A stretch of 29,503 bases of DNA from a virus. The stretch lies in IMG/VR virus record IMGVR_UViG_3300050821_002033, positions 1 through 29,503 of that record. The stretch is one strand, 5' to 3'. Positions 4,939 to 20,718 of the stretch are shown piece after piece; position 1 is the stretch's first letter, and each line of letters starts with the position of its first letter. The notes below the pieces were generated by a model. That model was not told the origin of the DNA. It saw nothing but the letters and a program-made list of their open reading frames with translations, and did not search any database. Made by a program: the position numbers and the translations under genes.

Positions 4939-5120
4939 TTCTTCTTTCGTCTCCCGCCCTGCATCAGAATGCCTACCACGAGCTCACGGTAGGCTTTGGC
5001 GTGCGCCCCACAAAAGCGTTTCTTGCCGGAATTCCTAGCCTCTAGACCGCAAGGCACAAGCAGTGCCCGTTCCGCTACGACCGTCTCCCGGAATGCGATA
5101 CAGCGCCTCAATTTGTCCAT
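4935..5120 (-). CDS. small Cys/His protein, unknown
   Basis: A 61-residue basic protein starting at ATG inside the last codons of the upstream gene (13-base overlap). It has Cys at residues 7, 24 and 37 and a His at 40, in a pattern (LVPCGLEAR...KRFCGAHAKAYRE) that might bind zinc, and it ends in a run of Arg and Lys. The ribosome-binding site is weak (CCAGGT next to the ATG). I do not recognise a family. The stop overlaps the next start as ATGA, which supports it as a real gene. Confidence 0.5.
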   Translation of the reverse strand: MDKLRRCIAFRETVVAERALLVPCGLEARNSGKKRFCGAHAKAYRELVVGILMQGGRRKKK

Positions 5121-5989
5121 ACCTGGAACGAACGGGGCAACATGCTCGCCGCGTCAAAGCCCAATATCAGGCGCACGTTGCCCGTCACAGCCCCGCTAGC
5201 CAGCAAGGATGGAATCTCAATGGTCTGCCCGGTGTTCAGTTGCGCCCCTGCGGGATTAAGAACAATCGGCAAGAGGTTTACCATCGCGGGCGTTACGTTT
5301 ACTGGACCCGTGCAAACCGCTATGGCCGACGTGTTGAAGGTAGCCGAGCAGACGTTTTGCCCATCTTGCGAGAGTTTAAGCGTGGCCCCGGCAAAGATGC
5401 TGCCTGAGACGAGCTGCGCCGGGTCGCTGCCGTCGCATTTGGTGCAGTTCACTAGCTGGATGCCGAAGGTTAGCGTATCAAACTTGGCGGGAACAATTGG
5501 CGTGGCAGTCAGCAGTATGTCATCGAACATCACTTGCGACGGCCCGGCTAGAAGCGTGAGGACCAACTCTCCTGGCCCTGTGCACGTCATCGTTTGCTGG
5601 ACGAGAGAGGCGGCTACAAGCGGGATAGCTCCTGTCTGGGTGCAAGTGACAGCCCCGCCTAGCGAAGCTCCCCAAGTCTGAGGGATAGGGAATCTAGCCT
5701 GCGAGCCGACATAGTAGGTCAGCGTGTACTTCATTGTGGGGTCGGATGGGCCGAGGTCTTGGGAGCAGGTTGCGTTTTGCGCCCAGAGCACGGATTTTCC
5801 GTCAGGAATAACAGGTAGCTGCGCCGCTGTAGGTGTCTCAATGCCCCAATACTGGCCCGTGCAATTCCATCCAGTCGGAGTGTCGTAGGAGTAGTTTTTT
5901 GTCTGAGCAGGAGACTCGAAACTACCATTGATCAGTGTTTGTGCCCGAAGGCTGCTGGCGAGCAGGAGTAGTAGAGCTAGGCGTCTCAT
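5108..5989 (-). CDS. exported beta-sandwich, carbohydrate-binding-like protein
   Basis: A 293-residue protein. The chosen start, MRRLALLLLLASSLRAQT, follows GGAG by eight bases and overlaps the upstream stop as TGATG; it opens a clear Sec signal peptide with a likely cut after LRAQ or LRA. The mature part begins INGSFESPAQ, the Asn-Gly-x-Phe-Glu start seen in galactose-binding-like, DUF642 and CBM-type beta sandwiches, and goes on to FDDILLTATP near residue 180, a usual end for that fold. A second beta-rich domain with paired Cys follows. I infer a secreted or surface-displayed sugar-binding protein. It closes the four-gene exported cassette, in a place where a phage normally encodes tail fibres. 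Confidence 0.7.
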   Translation of the reverse strand: MRRLALLLLLASSLRAQTLINGSFESPAQTKNYSYDTPTGWNCTGQYWGIETPTAAQLPVIPDGKSVLWAQNATCSQDLGPSDPTMKYTLTYYVGSQARFPIPQTWGASLGGAVTCTQTGAIPLVAASLVQQTMTCTGPGELVLTLLAGPSQVMFDDILLTATPIVPAKFDTLTFGIQLVNCTKCDGSDPAQLVSGSIFAGATLKLSQDGQNVCSATFNTSAIAVCTGPVNVTPAMVNLLPIVLNPAGAQLNTGQTIEIPSLLASGAVTGNVRLILGFDAASMLPRSFQVWTN

Positions 5990-8034
5990 CAATTCGGCTC
6001 CGATTGGCAGGAGATGATGTAGGTGTTTCCCGCAGTCAACGCGGTTGCCACTCCCAAGATGCTGTTTGTCCATGTAACTACCGGGACCGTTGCACTGCGC
6101 GTGGAAACCTTCACGTTTGCGGTGCTCCCCCATGCTCCAGTTCCGTCCGCTAGGTCACAAGTCAGGTTCGGAAGGATGCCGCTATTGATTTGGTTCGTCC
6201 CTGCATAGGTTATCGTTGTCGTTCCCGTGCTGCCTGGAGTAGTCCCCATTGTCATTACAACATCGAAAGCATTGTTCCCTTCCGTGTTGGCTGTCGCGCA
6301 AGATTGTCCCGGCGACCCGCCGCCAGTTGTAAGCACGCAGCTTGGTAGCACCGTAGATTCTAGCGCTGCGCCAGTGAATTGGTTGCCGCCTAGATTGAAA
6401 ACTCCTCCAGTGGTTAATGTCACGCCGTTCGTGCCGATGGCGTGGGTGCTCCCATTGATGGGAGAGGAGTCGCGCAAGAACAGTTTACCTGTCGCCGTTA
6501 GCTGCACTCCATAGGCTGACCCGCTGGCGTTGTACCATGAAGTCATGTAGGCGGTTGCAGGTCCATTTATAAAGATATGGGTCCCGCCAGCACCTACAGC
6601 GCCGTAGGATTGATCGTGTAAACTTGTCCAAGTAAGCGCACTGGCATCGCTCCCAACCCACACGCCAATCGTTGAAGCCGTTGCTCCGATATAGAAATTC
6701 TCCGTTCTGAGAACCGTGCCAGAGCCATTGATTTTCAAAGGGGATAGCCGCGTTTCGCCGCAATAGCTGTCCGTCAAAATGACGTTCACGCCGTTGGCAT
6801 TGCAGGCCTGTCCGCCGAATCCGCTGTTGTACATGCCATTAAATTTGTTTGCGAACGGGTAGTTGACGCCGATGCTCGCCGCGTCAAAGCATCCGTAATC
6901 TGTCATCGTCACGTTTTGCCAAAAAGTAGACGATGCGCTTGGATTGAAGAGAACTACCGCATTCGAGCCGGTTTGACAGTGACCGCCTCCAGTGATCGTG
7001 AAATTTCCGCCACCCATGAAATTCGAGAACAGGCAGCCAACGTTTCCGGCTACGCTTGTACTTATCCCGGTACAAGCGGCATAGTTCGAGTCAGGCGGCA
7101 GAAGAAAGGTTGTGTTGGCGATACCCTGCCCCCATATATTGTTTCCACCGACAGCTTGGCGGGAAGTGTTGCCAACACCGCTTGCACCGTTAGAGACAGT
7201 GCCGCAATTCGGGCTGTTATTATTTCCGAATCCGAATGGTAGCGGAGTCGTCCCGGCAGGCACACTGACACTCACGCAACTTCCAGCTAATCCAATGTTG
7301 TAATCCACGCTTCCGACTGCGCAGCACCATTTCGCGCGGTCGTCCGTGAACCACCAGAACTGCCCACCAGTAGGAGTAAGCAGAGCGGCTGTCGAATTAC
7401 CAACAACGTTCACTGTCGTAGGACTGGCGTATGTGACTATCCCCAACGGCCTAGTGGCTAACCCTCCAGGTGACGGGAAACAAGTAAGCGGTGTTGAACA
7501 GTTCGTGCCGAAACCAAGCTTCCCTGTATCGGCGGGGACGAATGGGCCAACATTGGAATCAACGATAAGTCCATTGGTTGTTGAACTGCCATTGGCGTGT
7601 ACGTTCGCCATCGTAACGGTGTTGGCGGTGACTCCCGTCAGAGTGAACGTGCCATTGAGGTAGGTATCCGCCCCGGAAAATATCGAAACCGTGACGCTAT
7701 CCCCGGTATTCCATCCATGTGCGAGTGGGTTAAACGGCTGACTGGCCAGGTTGAAAGAGATTGTTTCCACGTTCGACGCCACGGCTCCGGTTATGGGGGC
7801 ACTGCCAGAATTGCAAGTAACCAGAGTGCTTGTGTTAGGCCATGTGACGTAGTAGCAAACCTGCCCATCGAAGCTGATGTTGTATGGAGGAGCGTTGGGG
7901 TAAATGACGAGCGGTCCAGCAAGACCGGAATTCTTTGCCGCTACTGACGTGCTCCCCCCGCCTGAGCCTCCGCCTATTTGCGTTTGGGCTGCCAGCGTGA
8001 AAGGCACAAGGAAAAATATAAGAAATTTTCTCAT
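5989..8034 (-). CDS. exported beta-helix tail-region protein
   Basis: A 681-residue protein that starts at an ATGA overlap with MRKFLIFFLVPFTLAAQTQ, a Sec signal peptide with a likely cut at LAAQ. A Gly/Ser linker follows, then a long repetitive beta-rich body with many Asn, Gly, Ser and Thr and scattered Cys, and a C-terminal beta domain ending in YIISCQSEPN. Turns such as NFTITGGGHC and FWQNVTMTDYGC recur in the middle, consistent with a right-handed beta helix as found in pectate-lyase-like and tailspike proteins. I see no clear catalytic triad. It is probably a fibre, spike or glycan-active protein; the signal peptide is unexpected for a virion part. Confidence 0.7.
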   Translation of the reverse strand: MRKFLIFFLVPFTLAAQTQIGGGSGGGSTSVAAKNSGLAGPLVIYPNAPPYNISFDGQVCYYVTWPNTSTLVTCNSGSAPITGAVASNVETISFNLASQPFNPLAHGWNTGDSVTVSIFSGADTYLNGTFTLTGVTANTVTMANVHANGSSTTNGLIVDSNVGPFVPADTGKLGFGTNCSTPLTCFPSPGGLATRPLGIVTYASPTTVNVVGNSTAALLTPTGGQFWWFTDDRAKWCCAVGSVDYNIGLAGSCVSVSVPAGTTPLPFGFGNNNSPNCGTVSNGASGVGNTSRQAVGGNNIWGQGIANTTFLLPPDSNYAACTGISTSVAGNVGCLFSNFMGGGNFTITGGGHCQTGSNAVVLFNPSASSTFWQNVTMTDYGCFDAASIGVNYPFANKFNGMYNSGFGGQACNANGVNVILTDSYCGETRLSPLKINGSGTVLRTENFYIGATASTIGVWVGSDASALTWTSLHDQSYGAVGAGGTHIFINGPATAYMTSWYNASGSAYGVQLTATGKLFLRDSSPINGSTHAIGTNGVTLTTGGVFNLGGNQFTGAALESTVLPSCVLTTGGGSPGQSCATANTEGNNAFDVVMTMGTTPGSTGTTTITYAGTNQINSGILPNLTCDLADGTGAWGSTANVKVSTRSATVPVVTWTNSILGVATALTAGNTYIISCQSEPN

Positions 8035-10061
8035 GGATGCACCCTAATATTGAAAGCAATCGTCCCGCCAGCGGAAGCTGCTACGGCACATTCGTTGATA
8101 GTGACATTGCCTGCCGAAGAAACAAAAGCTGACCATACCGCTCCAACTCCCGGCGTCGAAACTGGCGAAGCTTCAGCTACCATTGTTGTAGTCGCTCCAG
8201 CCACGGCGGTCGTGCTCTGAACGCACGTTCCCGCTGTAGTAGCCGTGGCGAAAGCCGAACTTGTGGCCGACAGATTGAACGCTAAGTTCACATTTGTCAG
8301 AGGGTCGGGAATCGATACTGCTCTAGCCGCTGCTGTGGTCCCCGGCGTGAATGTGAAATTGTTTGTAGCCGCCGTACCCAACACCAATGCGTTCCAGGGA
8401 AGCGAGCCTACGCCCAACTGGAAGCCTGTCGTTGAGGGCACGAGATGGTTGGCAAACTGGAATTGATTGCTGCCGTTTACCTGCATACAAATATCAGCAT
8501 TGTTTGCCGCATTTCTCCAACACGCTGAATCCGTATTGCCTAATCTAATTTGCCCAACCGAGGCTATGTTGGCCGCAGTGCTTCTGAATGATGGCGCCAT
8601 AAAGAAACCAGAAGATTTGCAGCCAATAGCTGCTATGCTGCTACACACTGAACCGTCGCTGTTGACCCTGTAGAGGATGGAGTCCTGAGCCGTTACTGTG
8701 TTGGTGTTTATGTCGTCCAAAACAAGATTCGTTGCTCCATTTAGCGTGGCTCCGTGAATGGAAATGTTTCTGCCGCTGGCCACGTTGCGAATATGCACTA
8801 CGTTCGTTACTGTAGAGTTCCCGCTGACACCCAGCAGATCAACTCCGGGCGTAAGCGTTGCCGCTCCGGGCGTCGAAGTACCAGCGTTAGGCTGACCATT
8901 CAATTCGATGCCGTCTACGCACTGTTCAAAGTGGACCCTGACGAACGAAGCGGCGGCGGTGTTTATCAGCCTCATGCAGCTTTGCATCTTCTGAGTTGCC
9001 GCGCCGTTGGCAGTTACGGTGATGCGTTCAGCGCTGGTGTCGGCAAAAATAGTGGAACTCGTACCAGCAATCTCAAATCCCACCGAATCTTGCGCTATGG
9101 TAGAGTTTGCGCTCATGGTGATGTCGAGGTCTTGTAAATCCCAATTCTGCGGAGAGCCTCCAGCACTCTGCACTGAGTTGGCGGCGGTCTGTTCTATTTT
9201 GATGCCACGGTATACACAGTTATTTGGAGCGATGCGGCCTGCCCCAGAAAGCTCATTGATGGAGTTGGAATAGATGCCCGTTGAACCGGGGATATTCGCA
9301 CACTCAACCACGACATCCTGCAAGCGGGAGCCGTGGTCAAACGCTCCGCCGTAATTTGGCGTATCGCCAAGCACCACGACTGGAGGAGTTACCGTGCAGG
9401 TGCCATTGCATGTATCATTGACGACCGACCCGCCATTGCCCTGGCAGGTGACCGCTGTCCCTGCAATCGCCGTCACGATGCATGTTCCATTGATCGCCGT
9501 AAAACGAGACATCTGCAAAGGTGTTCCGAGAGCCACGCCTAACCCAACGGAAGTGGTGAATGTGACTACTCCTCCGGCGCTGCGCTGAGCATTCGCGGAA
9601 GCTACCGTAGCCGTTGGAAAGGAACCTCCAGCCGTGATGTGCGCTCCGTAATCGCCCTTGATGGTGTAGCCGTTAGGGACAAGCACTGGGAAATTGACGG
9701 TGACTACGGAACTGGCTTGCAGGTAAAGAGCGCCTAAACAGGCTCCGGTATGAAATCCGGCGAATAAATCTCCTGCCGCTGTTTCGGTAAATCCTCCTTT
9801 GACTACGATAGTCGAGGAGCACCCGTTAGCGGCAAGGGCTGCTTCGATGGTTGTGTACTTCGTTCCATCCACATAGAAGATGCTGTTGAAATTACCGACC
9901 GCGTTGAAAGTCCAAACTCCGGTCACTGTGCAGGCAAGATTGGACGCACAGAAAGTGTTAGTCTGGGCGCGAGCCGCTGGCGTCATCAGAAACCACTGTT
10001 CAGCAGTCGTGACGACGAACAGGCCAGCCAGCATCAGAAGAGCAATCAGCAGTCGTTTCAT
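8031..10061 (-). CDS. exported pectate-lyase-like beta-helix protein
   Basis: A 676-residue protein whose ATG (10059-10061) overlaps the upstream stop as TGATG. It has a long signal-like N-terminus, MKRLLIALLMLAGLFVV then AEQWFLMTPAARAQ, with a likely cut after ARA. The mature protein begins with a short beta segment, then FYVDGTKYTTIEAALAANGC, the start expected for a pectate_lyase_3-type beta helix on phage spikes. A long Asn/Thr/Gly-rich repetitive body follows, including QDLDITMSANS and FVRVHFEQCVDGIEL rungs. The C-terminal domain contains LGVGSLPWNALVLG and TFTPGTTAAARAVSIPDP, a motif set I associate with fibre C-termini. I infer a tailspike or fibre protein; enzymatic residues are not identifiable. 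Confidence 0.72.
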   Translation of the reverse strand: MKRLLIALLMLAGLFVVTTAEQWFLMTPAARAQTNTFCASNLACTVTGVWTFNAVGNFNSIFYVDGTKYTTIEAALAANGCSSTIVVKGGFTETAAGDLFAGFHTGACLGALYLQASSVVTVNFPVLVPNGYTIKGDYGAHITAGGSFPTATVASANAQRSAGGVVTFTTSVGLGVALGTPLQMSRFTAINGTCIVTAIAGTAVTCQGNGGSVVNDTCNGTCTVTPPVVVLGDTPNYGGAFDHGSRLQDVVVECANIPGSTGIYSNSINELSGAGRIAPNNCVYRGIKIEQTAANSVQSAGGSPQNWDLQDLDITMSANSTIAQDSVGFEIAGTSSTIFADTSAERITVTANGAATQKMQSCMRLINTAAASFVRVHFEQCVDGIELNGQPNAGTSTPGAATLTPGVDLLGVSGNSTVTNVVHIRNVASGRNISIHGATLNGATNLVLDDINTNTVTAQDSILYRVNSDGSVCSSIAAIGCKSSGFFMAPSFRSTAANIASVGQIRLGNTDSACWRNAANNADICMQVNGSNQFQFANHLVPSTTGFQLGVGSLPWNALVLGTAATNNFTFTPGTTAAARAVSIPDPLTNVNLAFNLSATSSAFATATTAGTCVQSTTAVAGATTTMVAEASPVSTPGVGAVWSAFVSSAGNVTINECAVAASAGGTIAFNIRVHP

Positions 10062-11506
10062 CAATAGGGGCCTTCTAAACGGATATGAAGCGCATATTGC
10101 ATCGAAGTCGCTCCACTCGTCGCGTAGCCGGAAGTCGAGTAGCTGATAGCCACGCCGGATTTGGCATAGAAATTTTGTGGGGCAAATGGAACAATCGCTC
10201 CTACTGTATTCGCCGTACTGTTCGTAACAAGCGCGATAGTCTCCGAAACACCTGTGTCGGCATCAGTATAGAGCACATTGCAAAGAGGAGATGTGGAACT
10301 GACCGTTGCTGCTTGAGTCACAACTACATAGCAAGAGAAGCGATAGAAGCCATTTCCCCCAGGCGTAAGGATTGGGGTTGAGGTGATGTTTGCTCCTTGG
10401 GAAGTCAAGTTTACCGCCGTGGACAGTCCAGGAGTCCTGATTTCCGGGCCAAATAAATCAACCAAATAAGTTCCAGCACCCACGTTGGTAAGTAGGACTC
10501 GCCCCATGACTTGGCCGCCGCTTATGGGATAGGTTGCCGAGCCGATGTCGTGGCAATTACCTATGACCGTGGAACTGATTTGCACGTAATCTCCGGCTGT
10601 CGTGCTCCCATCGCAGGTCCAAAGAACTTGCCCACTTGTCTGGACCACGGCAACCCCAGAAGTTCCCGCTCCAGCGATGACCACGCCGATGGCGCCGCCA
10701 GTATCCGTGATGGCCGTAGACTGGATGAAACTTCCCCCTCCTGACGGCGCAAGCTTCGCCAAGAGGTTGAGACCTGTTCCCCCTGCTCCATTTGTATAGG
10801 CTTGGAAATTTGTAGGATTGCCGGAAGAGACTGTATCGCCGCCAAGCGACAAGCCATTAATCGTCGGACTATTCAGCGTTGGACTCGTCGCAGTTAGTCC
10901 CGTCGCCGCGCCAGTAAAAGCAGGGCTGGCCAAGGTTTTGTTCGTCAGCGTTTGCGTCCCCGTTAGCGAAACCAGGCAATCCCAGAATGTCGTAAACGCT
11001 CGAAAGCAAGAAATGTCCGTGCGGTAGGCCAGTTCCCCAGCTGTACCCGAAGGGTCGGAGGATGCGCCGAGCACAAACAGATTAGACGCTTGATTGAGGA
11101 TGGTCCAAGCCGAAACATAGTCCACCGTGCGCACAAGCGTTCCCGTTGCGCAGTTATCATTTGAGCCATCGTAGGCCACGATTTTGAAGCGGTAGGACGC
11201 ATTTGATAGCCAGATAGACCCGTAGCCGCCAGAATCTAATATCACGGGATTGCTATTCACGAAATTACCCGTACCATCGGTGTAGGTTGCGAGCGGCGAA
11301 CTGGTTCCGCTTGCGTATGTCCAGACGCAACCAGATGCCAATGGCACCCCTGTTTGAGAGAAGAACGGTTGAGCGATAGGCGTCAATGGACTCATGGCAA
11401 CGGGGACTTGAGAAAATAAAGGAAGTGGCAACAAAAGAATGGTAAGATAGCGGCTGAATCTCAGTGCATTAGAGGTGCACCGATGAAAAAACGCATGAAG
11501 CGACAT
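10061..11506 (-). CDS. tail fibre with virion-binding-type N-terminus
   Basis: A tail-fibre protein of up to 481 residues. After a signal-like stretch (RYLTILLLPLPLFSQ) comes PIAQPFFSQTGVPLASGCVW, then SPLATYTDGTGN, PVILDSGGYGSIWL and YRFKIVAYDGS. This series is the N-terminal fold of many podovirus tail fibres and spikes, which attaches them to the tail. A Gly/Thr-rich shaft follows with TLTNKTLASPAFTG, and then a beta-rich C-terminal domain. The start is uncertain: ATG at 11504-11506 (used here), a CTG nearer the hydrophobic core, or an ATG at 11393-11395 that drops the signal. The same frame stays open up to 12028 through the antisense of the HNH gene. The 5' end overlaps that divergent gene by 24 bases. 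Confidence 0.7.
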   Translation of the reverse strand: MSLHAFFHRCTSNALRFSRYLTILLLPLPLFSQVPVAMSPLTPIAQPFFSQTGVPLASGCVWTYASGTSSPLATYTDGTGNFVNSNPVILDSGGYGSIWLSNASYRFKIVAYDGSNDNCATGTLVRTVDYVSAWTILNQASNLFVLGASSDPSGTAGELAYRTDISCFRAFTTFWDCLVSLTGTQTLTNKTLASPAFTGAATGLTATSPTLNSPTINGLSLGGDTVSSGNPTNFQAYTNGAGGTGLNLLAKLAPSGGGSFIQSTAITDTGGAIGVVIAGAGTSGVAVVQTSGQVLWTCDGSTTAGDYVQISSTVIGNCHDIGSATYPISGGQVMGRVLLTNVGAGTYLVDLFGPEIRTPGLSTAVNLTSQGANITSTPILTPGGNGFYRFSCYVVVTQAATVSSTSPLCNVLYTDADTGVSETIALVTNSTANTVGAIVPFAPQNFYAKSGVAISYSTSGYATSGATSMQYALHIRLEGPY

Positions 11507-12019
11507 GCTGTAATCCAGCCGCTTGACCAATCTATAAAACTTATCCCGCTTACGCAAGGACAGAATGCCATCGTGGACGCCGCCGACTTCGAGTGGCTTT
11601 CGCAATGGAACTGGTATGCCATCTGGTCTAATTGCACGAAAAGCTTCTACGCTACCAGGGCAATCGCTGGACGGCACACGTCCATCTCCATGCAACGGCA
11701 AATCCTTGAATGCGGACCGCTCGAAGAAGGGGATCACGAGAACAGAAATACGCTGGACAATCGACGTCAGAATCTTCGCAAATGCACGCACGTACAAAAT
11801 TGTCGGAATCGTAAAGCCCGCGTTAACAGTTCTACTGGATTCAAGGGAATCCGCTGGCGCAAGAGTAGGCGGTGTTGGGAAGTGCGCATTCAATACAACG
11901 GAAAAAGGACTAGCTTCGGAGGCTCTTTTGATTCTCCCGAAGAAGCGGCGCGCGCTTACGATAAGGCTGCAATAAAGTTCTTTGGTCCATTCGCTCATCT
12001 TAATTTCCCTAATCCTTAG
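11483..12019 (+). CDS. HNH/AP2 homing endonuclease
   Basis: A 178-residue protein starting at ATG, five bases after GAGGTG (11472-11477). Residues about 80-112 form an HNH_3-type core (EEGDHENRNTLDNRRQNLR, then KCTHVQNCRNRK), with His and Asn in the usual places. Residues about 118-175 are an AP2 DNA-binding domain: FKGIRWRKSRRCWEVRI, GKRTSFGGSFDSPEEAARAY and KFFGPFAHLNFP. This is the standard plan of free-standing phage homing endonucleases, which cut an unoccupied site and copy themselves in. It is the only plus-strand gene inside the minus-strand late operon, fitted between an ejection gene (11-base overlap at its 3' end) and the tail fibre, as expected of a recent mobile insertion. Confidence 0.92.
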   Translation: MKKRMKRHAVIQPLDQSIKLIPLTQGQNAIVDAADFEWLSQWNWYAIWSNCTKSFYATRAIAGRHTSISMQRQILECGPLEEGDHENRNTLDNRRQNLRKCTHVQNCRNRKARVNSSTGFKGIRWRKSRRCWEVRIQYNGKRTSFGGSFDSPEEAARAYDKAAIKFFGPFAHLNFPNP

Positions 12020-13175: not shown

Positions 13176-14491
13176 CAGGGCTTAATCTCCTCAATCTGGC
13201 CTGTCGTTGGGTTGTAACGATGCGTGGCCGCCTGTGATGGCTTGGCTGCTCCTTCTTGCGCTTTGTCGAGCGTCGTAATTACTCCAGAACGGTCCATAAC
13301 TACAGTCTTTTTCGGGTCAAGGCCTGCGTTGGCCGCTACCATGTTCGCGCCATTCACCAAACCGTGATACTTAGCGTCAATCAGGCCATCCACGATAGCC
13401 CCAGCTTCTTTCAAAGTGTCCTCTGGGACTGCTCCTGACCCAGCCTTGCTCATAATCGAATCCAGCCGCCTGTAGAGACTCCCGGCCTCTGGCCCTGCTG
13501 CATTTACTTCAGTTTGGTTGATGCGATGGACTCCAGCAAAGGAAGTGACTCCAAGAGCCAGCATGAGAGGCTCAAGATTGGAAGCCAGTTCATTGCCGTT
13601 CTTCGACTGCATGATGGTGTTCTTGGTGCTCTGGGCTTGCGATAGAAACTGTACATAGCCGTGCTGCGGATCGCTGAACATCTTGTCCAGGTTCGACAAA
13701 CCGCCCTTTTGCAGCTCGTTGGCGAATGTAGTCTGGCGCTGAATTGTGGCCCGGTAGTTGGCCTGCTGCTCTTTGTAGGTGTCTTCCGCCGTCACGGTGC
13801 CAAGTTGCCGCTGGCGTTCTGCTGCCAAAGATGCCTCATTCGTCGCTTGCAGGGTCTTGGCTTCCGTCTCTTGCAAACTTGCTTGCCGCTGGGCAATGAC
13901 ATCGGCATCGGACGGTGCTTGGCGCTGCTCGCGCTGAGCCTTCTCGTTTTGTGCCAGCCATTGTGAACCTTTCAATCCAGTCTCCACTTGGTTCAGGCTT
14001 TTATCGGAGAAGTCCGGTAAGTTGGTCAGCGATGGAACGATTTTAGATATATCCACATTTTCATTCGCCAGACGGCCAAGGGCGTCTTTGATGCCTTGAG
14101 GACGCTGCTCAATGGGGAGCTGCTTAACGCCTTCTAGTTCATTCGCCGTTAAATCATGTTGTTTTATCAAAAGATCGACTTGCTTCTCCGAAAGATTGGC
14201 CATTGCCGTTTGGGCTGCGATGCTTTGCGTCCTGAAGTTTAGGAGCATGGACGGCGTGACCTGGCCGGTCGCTGCGGCGTCAGCATAGGTTTTGTTCAGG
14301 TCGCCATTGTTCTCGCTGAACTTCTGCATCAAGACTTGCTGGCTGGTTTGGTTCTGGCGAGCCTCTTGCAGCTGAATCTCGCCAAGTTGCTGCTGTTGCA
14401 TCGCTCCTTTGATCTGCAAAGCTCCGCCGAGTTCCTGAAGGGGAGATTCAGGGGGCCTGATTTGAAGCGCGGGAAATCCAGCGGTAGCCAT
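13175..14491 (-). CDS. ejection protein candidate (gp20 position)
   Basis: A 438-residue, mostly helical protein beginning at a TAATG overlap. It is rich in Gln, Ala and Leu with long heptad-like stretches (QLQEARQNQTSQQVLMQKF; AQREQRQAPSDADVIAQRQA; NEASLAAERQRQLGTV). No membrane span or enzyme motif is seen. The C-terminal TTGQIEEIKP tail is a common end of phage internal proteins. By position between gp7-like and gp16-like genes it corresponds to P22 gp20, which is ejected with the DNA. The assignment rests on position, size (P22 gp20 is about 470 residues) and composition, not on a recognised motif. Confidence 0.65.
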   Translation of the reverse strand: MATAGFPALQIRPPESPLQELGGALQIKGAMQQQQLGEIQLQEARQNQTSQQVLMQKFSENNGDLNKTYADAAATGQVTPSMLLNFRTQSIAAQTAMANLSEKQVDLLIKQHDLTANELEGVKQLPIEQRPQGIKDALGRLANENVDISKIVPSLTNLPDFSDKSLNQVETGLKGSQWLAQNEKAQREQRQAPSDADVIAQRQASLQETEAKTLQATNEASLAAERQRQLGTVTAEDTYKEQQANYRATIQRQTTFANELQKGGLSNLDKMFSDPQHGYVQFLSQAQSTKNTIMQSKNGNELASNLEPLMLALGVTSFAGVHRINQTEVNAAGPEAGSLYRRLDSIMSKAGSGAVPEDTLKEAGAIVDGLIDAKYHGLVNGANMVAANAGLDPKKTVVMDRSGVITTLDKAQEGAAKPSQAATHRYNPTTGQIEEIKP

Positions 14492-15387
14492 TATTCTGGT
14501 ATCCCATTGGATGGAGCAAATGCTGGTCCGCTTAGAATGCCCGCCGTAGTATCACCAGGGTTAGTGCCCGGAGCAAGGCCGGGAATACCGCCAGTCGGCC
14601 CTGCGCCTTGCGGATTGAGAATCGAATTCAGTAGGGCGTATTGACTTAGGTTATTGATTCCGCCAGAAAGTGCATTGGCTACGCCTGCATAACCGGAAGC
14701 ATTGGCCGCTCCGGTGTAGAGAAGCGAGTTTCCAACCTGTCCGCCAATCGTGCCTGAAATGCTGGCATTGGTGTTGGCGTTCTGCTGGCCAAGCTGGCCT
14801 AGACTCGTCGCCGCCTGCTGTCCTAACCCACTCACGGAAGCCAGCCGGTTAAACTCATTGGTCTGATTGTTCTGGAACTGGTTGTATTGCTGCAAGTACT
14901 CGTTGAAAGCGTTCTGATAGGTTTGCTGGTAGGTCGTGGAAGCTAGGCCTTGATTGAATTGGTCGAGCGTCTTGAGGGTGCCAGTCGAAAGCAGATTCCC
15001 AGACCCGGCTGCGCTGTTCTGAATTGCTCCAGAACCTGCTCCGGCAGTGAACTGATAGCCCGGCGTAGCTTGTGCCTGAGCCACGGTCGGCGCGGCAAAA
15101 GTGCTCGTCCAAGGCGTTAAAAGACCGGAACCGGGAGTAGAAAGCAAGTTCGACAGGGTTCCAATGGCGGAAGTTCCTGCTCGGAGCCACGGCGCTTCAT
15201 TGGCTTGTGTCGTATTGAACTGGTTTTGGTTCTGCTGGAGTTGCTGCTGGCCAAGCATGTACTGAAGCTGGGCGGCGTTCTTCCCGGCGCTGGCCTGCGT
15301 CCCCGCTGCCGCAAGAGACCCTGCCGCGCCAATACCTGCGCTTGCCACTGCTCCGCCGATGATTGCCACTGGCAGGCTGATCGGCAT
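14491..15387 (-). CDS. gp7-like DNA transfer/ejection protein
   Basis: A 298-residue protein starting at a TGATG overlap. Residues 6-28 are a hydrophobic, small-residue helix (VAIIGGAVASAGIGAAG). Then come NAAQLQYMLGQQQLQQ, EAPWLRAGTSAIGTLSNLL, and TPGYQFTAGAGSGAIQNSAA followed by LLSTGTLKTLDQFNQGLAS. The PW/Y-x-x-AG-x-x-A-x-x-x-L element, the DPGY/TPGYQF element and the GTLKxLxxFxQxLAS element are the hallmarks of P22 gp7-like DNA transfer proteins in many podoviruses. The rest is Asn/Gln-rich and helical. It is expected inside the virion and is ejected first to help DNA cross the envelope. Confidence 0.8.
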   Translation of the reverse strand: MPISLPVAIIGGAVASAGIGAAGSLAAAGTQASAGKNAAQLQYMLGQQQLQQNQNQFNTTQANEAPWLRAGTSAIGTLSNLLSTPGSGLLTPWTSTFAAPTVAQAQATPGYQFTAGAGSGAIQNSAAGSGNLLSTGTLKTLDQFNQGLASTTYQQTYQNAFNEYLQQYNQFQNNQTNEFNRLASVSGLGQQAATSLGQLGQQNANTNASISGTIGGQVGNSLLYTGAANASGYAGVANALSGGINNLSQYALLNSILNPQGAGPTGGIPGLAPGTNPGDTTAGILSGPAFAPSNGIPE

Positions 15388-15869: not shown

Positions 15870-16132
15870 ATCAGCTGCACCCAAGTCTTTCCGTTCCACA
15901 GGTCTACGTGCCCGCTGTCCGTCTCATACACTATAGACCCTATTGTCAAGTTGCCTGTGGCTAAAGCGAGACGCTGACTGTGGGTAAGTGTATACGCTTT
16001 GGGGCTAGAGGCCATGAAAGAAATGATCGACTGGAAGAATTGCTGCCAGGCAAGGACAAAGTTCCCATCCGAGCCGATGGGCTTGGTCTGGAAGATGGCC
16101 AGTTGCGCGTTTTGTGTCGTAGTTGTTGGCAT
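15866..16132 (-). CDS. small tail protein
   Basis: An 88-residue protein starting at a TGATG overlap with the gp10-like gene. The N-terminal half is helical (FVLAWQQFFQSIISFMAS), and the C-terminal part, GSIVYETDSGHVDLWNGKTW, resembles the Tyr-x-Thr-Asp...Trp-x-Gly-x-x-Trp beta motif common at the ends of phage tail and fibre proteins. Its place directly after the tail hub gene is that of the P22 gp26 tail needle or gp14. It is far shorter than gp26 and has no long coiled coil, so I call it only a small tail or tail-completion protein. Confidence 0.65.
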   Translation of the reverse strand: MPTTTTQNAQLAIFQTKPIGSDGNFVLAWQQFFQSIISFMASSPKAYTLTHSQRLALATGNLTIGSIVYETDSGHVDLWNGKTWVQLI

Positions 16133-18051
16133 CAGCTAACCTTTTGGTATTGCCGGACCAGTCTCTCGCTTGGCTTGTAGCCAGGTTCGGCGTTGATGTA
16201 GCCATTGACGATGCGGATGGGCACAGACTCTGAACAAGTGACTTCAAGAGTCCTAATCCTCGCCGCTCCCAGCCTGTACCAGATTACGCGCGTCTTCCAT
16301 TGCCCGGCTTGCCCCGCGTCTCGTGACTGGGCATTTGACCACGTATGTCCAGCGTCGTCTGACCATCTGAGCCAGACGAGCGGCCCGCGAGCAAACAGGC
16401 TGAAATTCTGCGAAGTCTGCAAAAGCCCCGTTGCCGTTACGCTCAAATTCCAAGCATTCGTCGGAGAAACCATTGGGATGGTCGAGGGATTGGCAGCGTT
16501 GAATGTAACCACGGTTGTGGTCAGCAGTCCGGCAATCGTGACGCCTAGCTGCCAGGTCGCCGCGCCGACATTCAGAAAGATGGTTTGGGCCGCTCCGAGT
16601 GAACCTGAAGTTGTTTGGAGCAGGCCAGCCGAGGTAACGGTCACGCCCCACAGGATGCCATTGGCATCTTTCAGCGTCAGGATCGTAGGACTTCCCCCGC
16701 CAGTCTGGAGAGGCGGCTCAGGCCCAAGCCCTGTCTCCATATCCAACGTGAACTTGTCGAAGCGCGTCATTTCCAGCTCTGTCGAGATGTGCGGCGCACG
16801 GCGTAGCTTGATGATTGGCACGCCGGCATTGCTGTAGAAACTTGTGCTCATCTGGTAGAGGTTCGCTGACCGCCAATCGCCTACTACGTGGAAACCATTC
16901 CAGTAAGCATGGTTCCAGCTTGGATGGCCGAGACTTCCTCCGGTCGCCTCACTGAGCAAATCCCTTTCATGCCAAAGTCCCGTCGCCACGTCATAGACCC
17001 AAGTAGCCCCGTTTCCATTGTTAGCCGAGGGGAACAGCACGACCCAGAAAGCGTGGCCTTGGTCCTGATAGGCATAGCTGACCGCATCGCTGCGCTTGGG
17101 GTAGCTTTTCCAGGCCAGTTCCACGGCGTGCGTCGTGATTCTCTGAGGCGTCAAGCCATTCAGCCGGAAGCCCATGCCATCGCCTTTGTCGTCGCCTGAA
17201 ACCCAGAAAGGCGAGTTGTCCAGCTTGCTCATCGCAAACGTAGCGATAGCGCCTTGCTCGACAAAGGAACCTGGCTGAACAGTGAAAATATTGATCGGGT
17301 CGCCAGAGCTGTAAGCAACAGTCGCTTTGCGGCCCAGGAGCCAAAGATTCCGGTGGTCTACGATCATGCCAACCACGTTTTCAGGATAGACGCTGACGAT
17401 GATCTGACTGGAGACGCCTCCGGTATAGACTCCGCCGACTATCGAGCCGCCAGGAATCCAGTTGTAGCCGTCGAGGACATTCGAGATTTGAATGCTCTGG
17501 CTATTGGCAATCAGGGCTAGAAAGAACGAATCGCAGAAGGCCACTTGTTTGACAGGGGCATTGCCTCCGGCAGTCGTGAAGTTTGAGGCTGGCACTTGCT
17601 TAAACGTTCCTGCTGCAATCGGCAGCCCAGTCACGGAATCGTTTATCTTGTTCAGGTAGTAGATGTAGACGTTTCCCGCGCTAGAAATGAGCAGCTGATT
17701 TTCGTTGGCGGCAATCGAGGCTGGCAACCCATCGTTGGCCATTGGTGCGCCGGGATTGAGCGCCGTGAGGGAAACGACCGCGGGGCTGGTCAGCGTCGGG
17801 GGCGAAACAAGGATGACTTGATAGAAATTCACCCCGCCTACAACATAAAGCATCCCGTTGAATTCAAGCTCCGCTCTCGAAGCAGCGTCCAGTTGGGCAA
17901 GGATGGCCAAGCCGGGCGTGTTCAGCAAGGTCATCTTTGACCGGCCATCGCCAGACTCGACTATTTCGGGATATAGGTTTAGCGTGCGCTGATTGTCAGC
18001 GTTGATTGTGGAGAGGGTGTAACTTCCTGAGCAAAAATCGAACTGTGCGAT
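16132..18051 (-). CDS. gp10-like tail hub / packaged-DNA stabilisation protein
   Basis: A protein of about 639 residues in the P22 gp10 position after gp4. Repeated FW, YW and Trp-Asp motifs suggest a beta propeller, as in gp10-like hub proteins that plug the portal and hold fibres. The annotated-looking ATG at 17932-17934 is too far downstream: the frame upstream of it encodes AQFDFCSGSYTLSTINADNQ, then RTLNLYPEIVESG, the conserved N-terminus of this family. No ATG, GTG or TTG lies in that part. The family usually begins M-A-Q-F-D-F, and the codon in the Met position is ATC (18049-18051), seven bases after AGGAG. I therefore place the start at ATC. The gene is in the same frame as gp4, divided from it by one TAA and one GGT codon. 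Confidence 0.8.
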   Translation of the reverse strand: MAQFDFCSGSYTLSTINADNQRTLNLYPEIVESGDGRSKMTLLNTPGLAILAQLDAASRAELEFNGMLYVVGGVNFYQVILVSPPTLTSPAVVSLTALNPGAPMANDGLPASIAANENQLLISSAGNVYIYYLNKINDSVTGLPIAAGTFKQVPASNFTTAGGNAPVKQVAFCDSFFLALIANSQSIQISNVLDGYNWIPGGSIVGGVYTGGVSSQIIVSVYPENVVGMIVDHRNLWLLGRKATVAYSSGDPINIFTVQPGSFVEQGAIATFAMSKLDNSPFWVSGDDKGDGMGFRLNGLTPQRITTHAVELAWKSYPKRSDAVSYAYQDQGHAFWVVLFPSANNGNGATWVYDVATGLWHERDLLSEATGGSLGHPSWNHAYWNGFHVVGDWRSANLYQMSTSFYSNAGVPIIKLRRAPHISTELEMTRFDKFTLDMETGLGPEPPLQTGGGSPTILTLKDANGILWGVTVTSAGLLQTTSGSLGAAQTIFLNVGAATWQLGVTIAGLLTTTVVTFNAANPSTIPMVSPTNAWNLSVTATGLLQTSQNFSLFARGPLVWLRWSDDAGHTWSNAQSRDAGQAGQWKTRVIWYRLGAARIRTLEVTCSESVPIRIVNGYINAEPGYKPSERLVRQYQKVS

Positions 18052-20079: not shown

Positions 20080-20718
20080 TTACAAGCGGGATGGAATCCA
20101 CTTCTGAATGTTCAGGTCGAGAATGAAGGTAGCATAGTTCCCGGTCTGTACCGCGGTGCTCGAGGCGTTGAACGGGTAGAACGTGCCCGGTGCGCCAACG
20201 GTGCCGGATACCGCTCCGCCTGTCGCCCAAGACGCCGCGCCATCGAACACGATGTTGATTTCTCCGCCCTGCTCATACCCTGCCGGGGGAGCCATCGTGG
20301 TTAAGGCTGTAGTGCCGCTGACATGGAAGAACGCGCTTGGAGCGGTAATGGCAGCCGCCGAAGCCACCACGCCAGAGAATCCTTGGAACTTATTGGGTAG
20401 CGCAGGAACAGCGGTCTGTTCTGCCGGGGAGAATGCCGGGAAGTCGGTTGTAAGTCCCGCGGTCACTGTGGAGTTGACGGTGTGCGCTGAGGCCTGTGAG
20501 CCAAGCTCTCCGCGCGCCACGCTGATAACCGTGCCGTTTACGCCCGTCACCTTCATCATTTCCTGCTCGATCAAAAGGTAGGTCACGCCGCCAGAGATGC
20601 CTTTCGTCGGGTCGCCAATCTGGTAGTTGGGAGCCGTAATGCCAGTTGCGCTCGTGACGTTGACAACCGTGTCCGTGAGGAGCACCGCAGCTGAAAGAGT
20701 GGTTACAGTGATAGCCAT
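20080..20718 (-). CDS. head-region structural protein, unknown
   Basis: A 212-residue protein starting at ATG, four bases after AAGGAGA and nine bases after the coat stop. Its N-terminal half (MAITVTTLSAAVLLTDTVVN; YLLIEQEMMKVTGVNGTVIS; VARGELGSQASAHTVNSTVT) matches a short module common in phage structural proteins, where an Ile-Asp/Glu-x-E-xMx-V strand is followed by an R-G-x-x-G-(T/S)-x-A-x-x-H loop. The C-terminal half is Gly/Ala/Thr-rich and beta-like. The exact role is unknown; head decoration or completion is likely from its place directly after coat. Confidence 0.65.
   Translation of the reverse strand: MAITVTTLSAAVLLTDTVVNVTSATGITAPNYQIGDPTKGISGGVTYLLIEQEMMKVTGVNGTVISVARGELGSQASAHTVNSTVTAGLTTDFPAFSPAEQTAVPALPNKFQGFSGVVASAAAITAPSAFFHVSGTTALTTMAPPAGYEQGGEINIVFDGAASWATGGAVSGTVGAPGTFYPFNASSTAVQTGNYATFILDLNIQKWIPSRL

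Follow-up and report, generated by a model that had tools for sequence, protein, structure and literature searches.

Genomic context

The window, meaning the whole stretch of DNA analysed, corresponds to an IMG/VR virus record of 29.5 kb, whose minus strand holds a P22-like podovirus module. Genes of this module specify the terminase, portal, scaffold and coat proteins, together with a closure protein resembling gp10 and a protein for DNA ejection. Four large genes, designated D, C, B and A, come after the ejection genes on the same strand and together span 5108-11506 (Table 1). The gp10-like hub protein is the neighbour expected for a docked spike. At the opposite end of gene D from C, an HNH-AP2 gene lies on the plus strand, and at the same junction before the spike gene a different HNH endonuclease gene is found on the opposite strand in L003 (9481-10074, minus); both HNH genes overlap the 5' end of the spike gene. 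Elsewhere in the window, a small protein (2031-2522, minus) with a lipobox-like leader (TLAGC) is conserved in L004 (63%) and is perhaps a lysis lipoprotein.

Table 1. Coordinates of the features discussed in the text
Feature	Position	Strand	Remarks
Gene D	10061..11506	-	tailspike; predicted N-terminal signal peptide, then P22-type head-binding domain
Leader of D	11411..11506	-	residues 1-32; predicted cut LFS/Q33; start codon uncertain
Head-binding domain of D	11093..11410	-	mature residues ~1-106; Cys pair of GCVWTY and DNCATG
Gene C	8031..10061	-	fibre-like, predicted exported; 18 Cys
Leader of C	9966..10061	-	residues 1-32; predicted cut ARA/Q33; TTA/E21 a possible earlier cut
Gene B	5989..8034	-	fibre-like, predicted exported; 18 Cys
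Leader of B	7987..8034	-	16 residues; predicted cut LAA/Q
Gene A	5108..5989	-	predicted exported; HpiC1-like domain; 8 Cys
Leader of A	5942..5989	-	16 residues; predicted cut LRA/Q
P22 gp10-like head closure/hub protein	16132..17934	-	phrog_578, E 1.6e-67; without leader
DNA-ejection protein	14491..15387	-	phrog_598; no Cys; cytoplasmic virion control
HNH-AP2 gene	11483-12019	+	overlaps 5' end of D

N-terminal leaders of the four proteins

All four proteins open with basic residues and a hydrophobic run leading to a small-residue cut site of the signal peptidase I (SPase I) type, after which comes Gln. The features of Sec/SPase I substrates are thus present: a basic n-region, a hydrophobic h-region and small residues at -3 and -1. 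The predicted leaders are MSLHAFFHRCTSNALRFSRYLTILLLPLPLFS in D (start 11506), MKRLLIALLMLAGLFVVTTAEQWFLMTPAARA in C (start 10061), MRKFLIFFLVPFTLAA in B (start 8034) and MRRLALLLLLASSLRA in A (start 5989), each followed directly by Gln, which confirms the four leaders and cut sites of the original prediction. Q33 of C is invariant in alignment A4, and the mature N-terminus of this protein is predicted to be QTNTFCASNLACTVTG.

Genes C, B and A each begin where the gene before them ends, through start-stop overlaps of TGATG, ATGA and TGATG, respectively, and the leaders of these three genes are therefore very probably translated; GGAG lies 12 bases upstream of the A start. The start of D is less certain because of the overlapping HNH-AP2 gene, but in five relatives the D reading frame opens at the leader's first residue, through an ATGA overlap. 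True starts located after the hydrophobic segments are contradicted by these start-stop overlaps, which precede the leaders, and by the lack of an internal start conserved among the D relatives examined. As the leaders were called with a crude rule-based caller, which also flags membrane segments and sets some cuts a few residues early, we gave weight to aligned families.

Gene D encodes a variant P22-type tailspike

The N-terminal domain profile of D (A2) matches the tailspikes of the cyanophages Pam1 (PDB 7eeq, E 5.4e-12) and Pan3 (PDB 9vyg, E 7e-12). The AlphaFold model of D is usable in the head-binding domain only and unreliable past residue 106; the 14 best structural matches of the mature model are head-binding domains of podovirus spikes, with Z scores of 10.3 to Pan3 (9vyg), 8.9 to P22 (1lkt) and 8.6 to in-situ P22 and Pam1. 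One of the four proteins had been expected to have the tail-attachment fold of podovirus fibres, and D bears this out. Like the tailspikes of P22 (gp9), Sf6, Pam1 and Pan3, D combines this N-terminal fold with a position downstream of the ejection genes in a P22-like structural operon, where the spike of Xanthomonas phage PBR31 is also found.

Based on the head-binding domain and the genomic place, we identify D as a tailspike, and because a leader of ~32 residues precedes that domain we regard it as a variant of the P22 type. P22-type tailspikes usually begin directly at the head-binding domain, although the family does not strictly require this, and in the solved spike structures the region aligned with D begins at chain residue 2-15. 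D differs from them in its predicted signal peptide and in being Cys-rich.

Conservation of the leaders

Relatives were gathered from viral contigs, GTDB genomes and phage records. Among relatives of D the leaders are only 25-38% identical, against 55-78% for the mature N-terminus, and yet the n-h-c pattern and the cut site are kept. With cut sites assigned by eye, the -1 residue is Ala, Gly or Ser in 20 of 21 D leaders and the +1 residue is Gln in 18 of 21, the other three lacking it. Gln is likewise residue 1 in all eight aligned mature spikes (the alignment being trimmed to begin there). In L092, a relative of B keeps the mature N-terminus but has another leader in front of it, and a relative of A in L004 is also leadered.

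In the same phages, no leader was called in the terminase, portal, scaffold, gp13175 and gp12009 families. The few calls in other families sit at internal starts, and a hydrophobic N-terminus occurs in 2 of 12 ejection proteins. Since the pattern is kept at 25-38% identity and the five families just named are without a leader call, the leaders go beyond chance, and their conservation indicates that they are under selection as signal peptides. In a crude scan of Acidicapsa host genes, Gln was the commonest +1 residue (10/38), and the phage leaders therefore resemble those of the host. Pyroglutamate formation as an obligatory step at this Gln was unsupported by a glutaminyl cyclase search limited to PF05096, which found the family in one of five host genomes.

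A motif like HDYTLYxPxxP was observed after the signal peptide in five predicted exported proteins (L003, 11518 and 13528; L008, 12084; L091, 8001; L095, 7995), including two different proteins of one phage. It could represent either a docking peptide or a propeptide.

Distribution of the leader by host lineage

Acidobacteriota genomes harbour all five of the nearest proviruses, the isolate Acidicapsa dinghuensis being among these hosts, and the host of the window virus is, judging from these relatives, most likely a member of the class Terriglobia in that phylum. A sweep of 399 Terriglobia genomes recovered the head-binding domain in ten, with a leader before the domain in all ten, and a sweep of 398 Pseudomonadota genomes recovered it in six, none with a leader. 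The domain is likewise leaderless in five phage records (PBR31, P26218, DSL-LC05 and two podoviruses from metagenomes); in these records, as in the six Pseudomonadota genomes, it begins 5-11 residues after Met. A later sample of viral contigs, overlapping the earlier contigs in part, was bimodal: seven proteins were leadered and 37 had the domain 5-11 residues after Met. The new leadered cases in this sample are L104, L147 and L160; the scan used A5, A2 being too divergent for such a scan. A tree of the 75-residue domain requires approximately four changes of label, of which strongly supported branches force only one, leaving repeated gain of the leader as no more than a possibility. The search for such leaders in related phages found them in all D relatives of the lineage, related viral contigs included, and a leadered spike appears from these sequences to be the rule within the Terriglobia-linked group. 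An exported set of this kind had been called unusual; this holds against textbook phages but not within the lineage.

The sole leaderless head-binding-domain protein found in any Acidobacteriota genome is L050 1111-1803 (minus). Its genome came from the phylum sweep and is absent from the class sweep; L050 is possibly a mis-binned contig.

In three Acidobacteriota proviruses the protein after the coat is leadered (L025, 7443-8477; L026, 7289-8356; L027, 6337-7134). Perhaps in one sublineage the exported set includes a head-surface protein too. The protein after the coat protein in the window (20080-20718) has no signal peptide.

Cysteine content

Cysteine density is 1.88% in leadered spikes versus 0.60% in leaderless ones. 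The later sample gave 2.1% versus 0.25% (p 4e-5, an indicative value, as the sequences are related and not independent). The difference extends to the head-binding domain itself, which has no Cys in 11 leaderless spikes; in the later sample, Cys was present in this domain in 7/7 leadered proteins versus 5/37 leaderless ones. The cysteines of GCVFTY and NCASG make up a pair absent from leaderless spikes: of eight aligned leadered spikes, seven carry both and one carries neither. Several Terriglobia spikes also lack the first (GCVFTY). Mature A, B, C and D contain 8, 18, 18 and 8 Cys, and the ejection proteins of the window contain none. DsbA-like proteins were present in all five host genomes tested. 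Such enrichment is what an oxidizing compartment would allow, and we infer that the spikes form disulfides.

Genes C, B and A

The remaining three proteins are less well characterized. Protein A matches Pfam PF22825 (HpiC1-like) at 31.8 bits against a cut-off of 27, which supports the earlier reading of one protein as a sugar-binding type of sandwich. The AlphaFold model of C is unusable (pLDDT 32), and the beta-helix fold earlier suggested for two of the four proteins is tentative. No virion-attachment domain was recognised in C, B or A, cultured phage records gave no match to C or A, and no muralytic family was among the Pfam and PHROG matches of the four proteins.

The last ~130 residues of C (window 8031-8423, minus) are a swapped module: they recur, at up to 82% identity, at the C-termini of proteins that are otherwise unlike C in three other viral contigs (L005, L006 and L007). 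In L005, a phage whose structural genes differ, the module is part of a leadered protein. L091, a phage whose putative coat protein is of another kind, also encodes a relative of C.

Comparison with known systems

The cultured phages PBR31 (Xanthomonas) and BcepC6B (Burkholderia) share the gene order of the window around the spike, and in both a leadered fibre-like protein directly follows the spike or fibre gene (PBR31 orf035, L010 8154-8963; BcepC6B gp19, L097 3001-4074). Leadered fibre-like proteins therefore extend beyond the Terriglobia-linked group. In contrast to the window, however, the PBR31 spike (orf034) and the BcepC6B fibre (gp18) are leaderless and each phage has a single leadered protein. 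The C-terminal domain of orf035 and gp19 is common to leaderless fibres of Autographiviridae.

Exported phage endolysins, namely Lys44 of fOg44 and the SAR endolysins, are late proteins that use the host Sec machinery and then wait on the far side of the membrane for the holin to act (PMC6116005). These are lysis enzymes, whereas the window proteins are putative virion parts. The Gln at +1 in 18 of 21 D leaders and in all four window proteins is reminiscent of the Q-rule of Bacteroidetes, in which Gln stands directly after the SPase I site (PMC5837995), and which is obeyed by five Porphyromonas gingivalis phage genes of unknown function (PMC10367356). The present case differs in that the linked hosts are Acidobacteriota (for the window virus, by way of its relatives) and in that one of the protein types is a recognizable virion tailspike.

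Proposed assembly route and alternatives

Tailed phages are taught to finish their virions in the cytoplasm. For the window virus we think it probable, on sequence grounds, that the spikes are instead exported by Sec, trimmed and disulfide-bonded in the periplasm, and docked onto cytoplasmic capsids at lysis. Together, the four proteins would form the receptor-binding apparatus of a P22-like podovirus. Their precursors would pass through the host Sec machinery, signal peptidase I would cut them directly before the Gln, and the mature spikes would fold and acquire disulfides in the periplasm. Capsids bearing the portal and the gp10-like hub would meanwhile be built in the cytoplasm. Opening of the inner membrane at lysis would then let the spikes dock via their head-binding domain, and the virion would be finished. 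For P22, tailless particles can take up added spikes in vitro. A counter-point is that a spike exported before lysis must meet its capsids within the short lysis window. The export signal is well supported; actual export, cleavage, disulfide formation and docking at lysis are inferred from it and from the accompanying features.

The proteins may alternatively act mainly free of the virion, for example as polysaccharide depolymerases, decoys or adhesins before or during lysis, with attachment secondary or absent. Secretion would account for the leaders and the Cys content just as well, no attachment domain is recognised in C, B or A, of which A carries the HpiC1-like domain, and the exported endolysins are phage proteins able to wait outside the membrane (PMC6116005). 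This explanation leaves unaccounted for, however, that D keeps a conserved head-binding domain right behind its leader. D moreover occupies the tailspike position, as in relatives such as PBR31, and these phages show no second, leaderless spike gene at the same place. We accordingly consider a free-acting role rather unlikely, and because the head-binding domain of D is genuine a late addition to the virion is more likely in our view than a role in secreted form only.

Hydrophobic N-terminal segments can also anchor proteins, and uncleaved leaders could serve membrane-bound assembly or act as hydrophobic plugs in the virion. Nothing about an anchor, however, would explain why unrelated leaders conserve a small residue at -1 and Gln at +1, and solved virions have the head-binding domain at the very N-terminus of the chain; retention of the leader is thus very unlikely. 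Of the two roles envisaged in the original prediction, export or membrane-bound assembly, the latter is disfavoured and export with cleavage is strongly favoured, given the conserved SPase I site and Gln, the cysteines that track the leader and the split by host lineage.

We regard it as highly improbable that an internal start also yields a leaderless cytoplasmic spike for the virion, leaving another job to the exported form: D in the window does have an ATG six codons past the cut site, but no internal start with a ribosome-binding site was conserved among the nine D relatives examined. It is barely credible that the leaders reflect chance hydrophobicity or misassigned starts, the uncertain D start beneath the HNH gene notwithstanding, as this is contradicted by the start-stop overlaps before the leaders, the conserved leader pattern and the clean lineage split.

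Implications

That short-tailed viruses linked to soil Acidobacteriota put a secretion signal before their tail-spike proteins is well supported by the sequences compared here. Whether Terriglobia podoviruses in general follow a two-compartment assembly, in which cytoplasmic capsids and Sec-exported, disulfide-stabilized periplasmic spikes are joined when the inner membrane opens, we judge to be evenly poised. An open-access literature search, with subscription journals mostly outside its scope, found no account of Sec-exported tail spikes, which is weak evidence of novelty.

If spikes are indeed exported, the final assembly step would shift to the moment of lysis and the receptor-binding proteins would acquire disulfides. 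The phage would rely on the host Sec machinery, on SPase I and probably on Dsb, and parts of its virion would be exposed outside the inner membrane before lysis. Because the trait tracks host lineage closely in our sample, the leader may also help to link such phages to their hosts.
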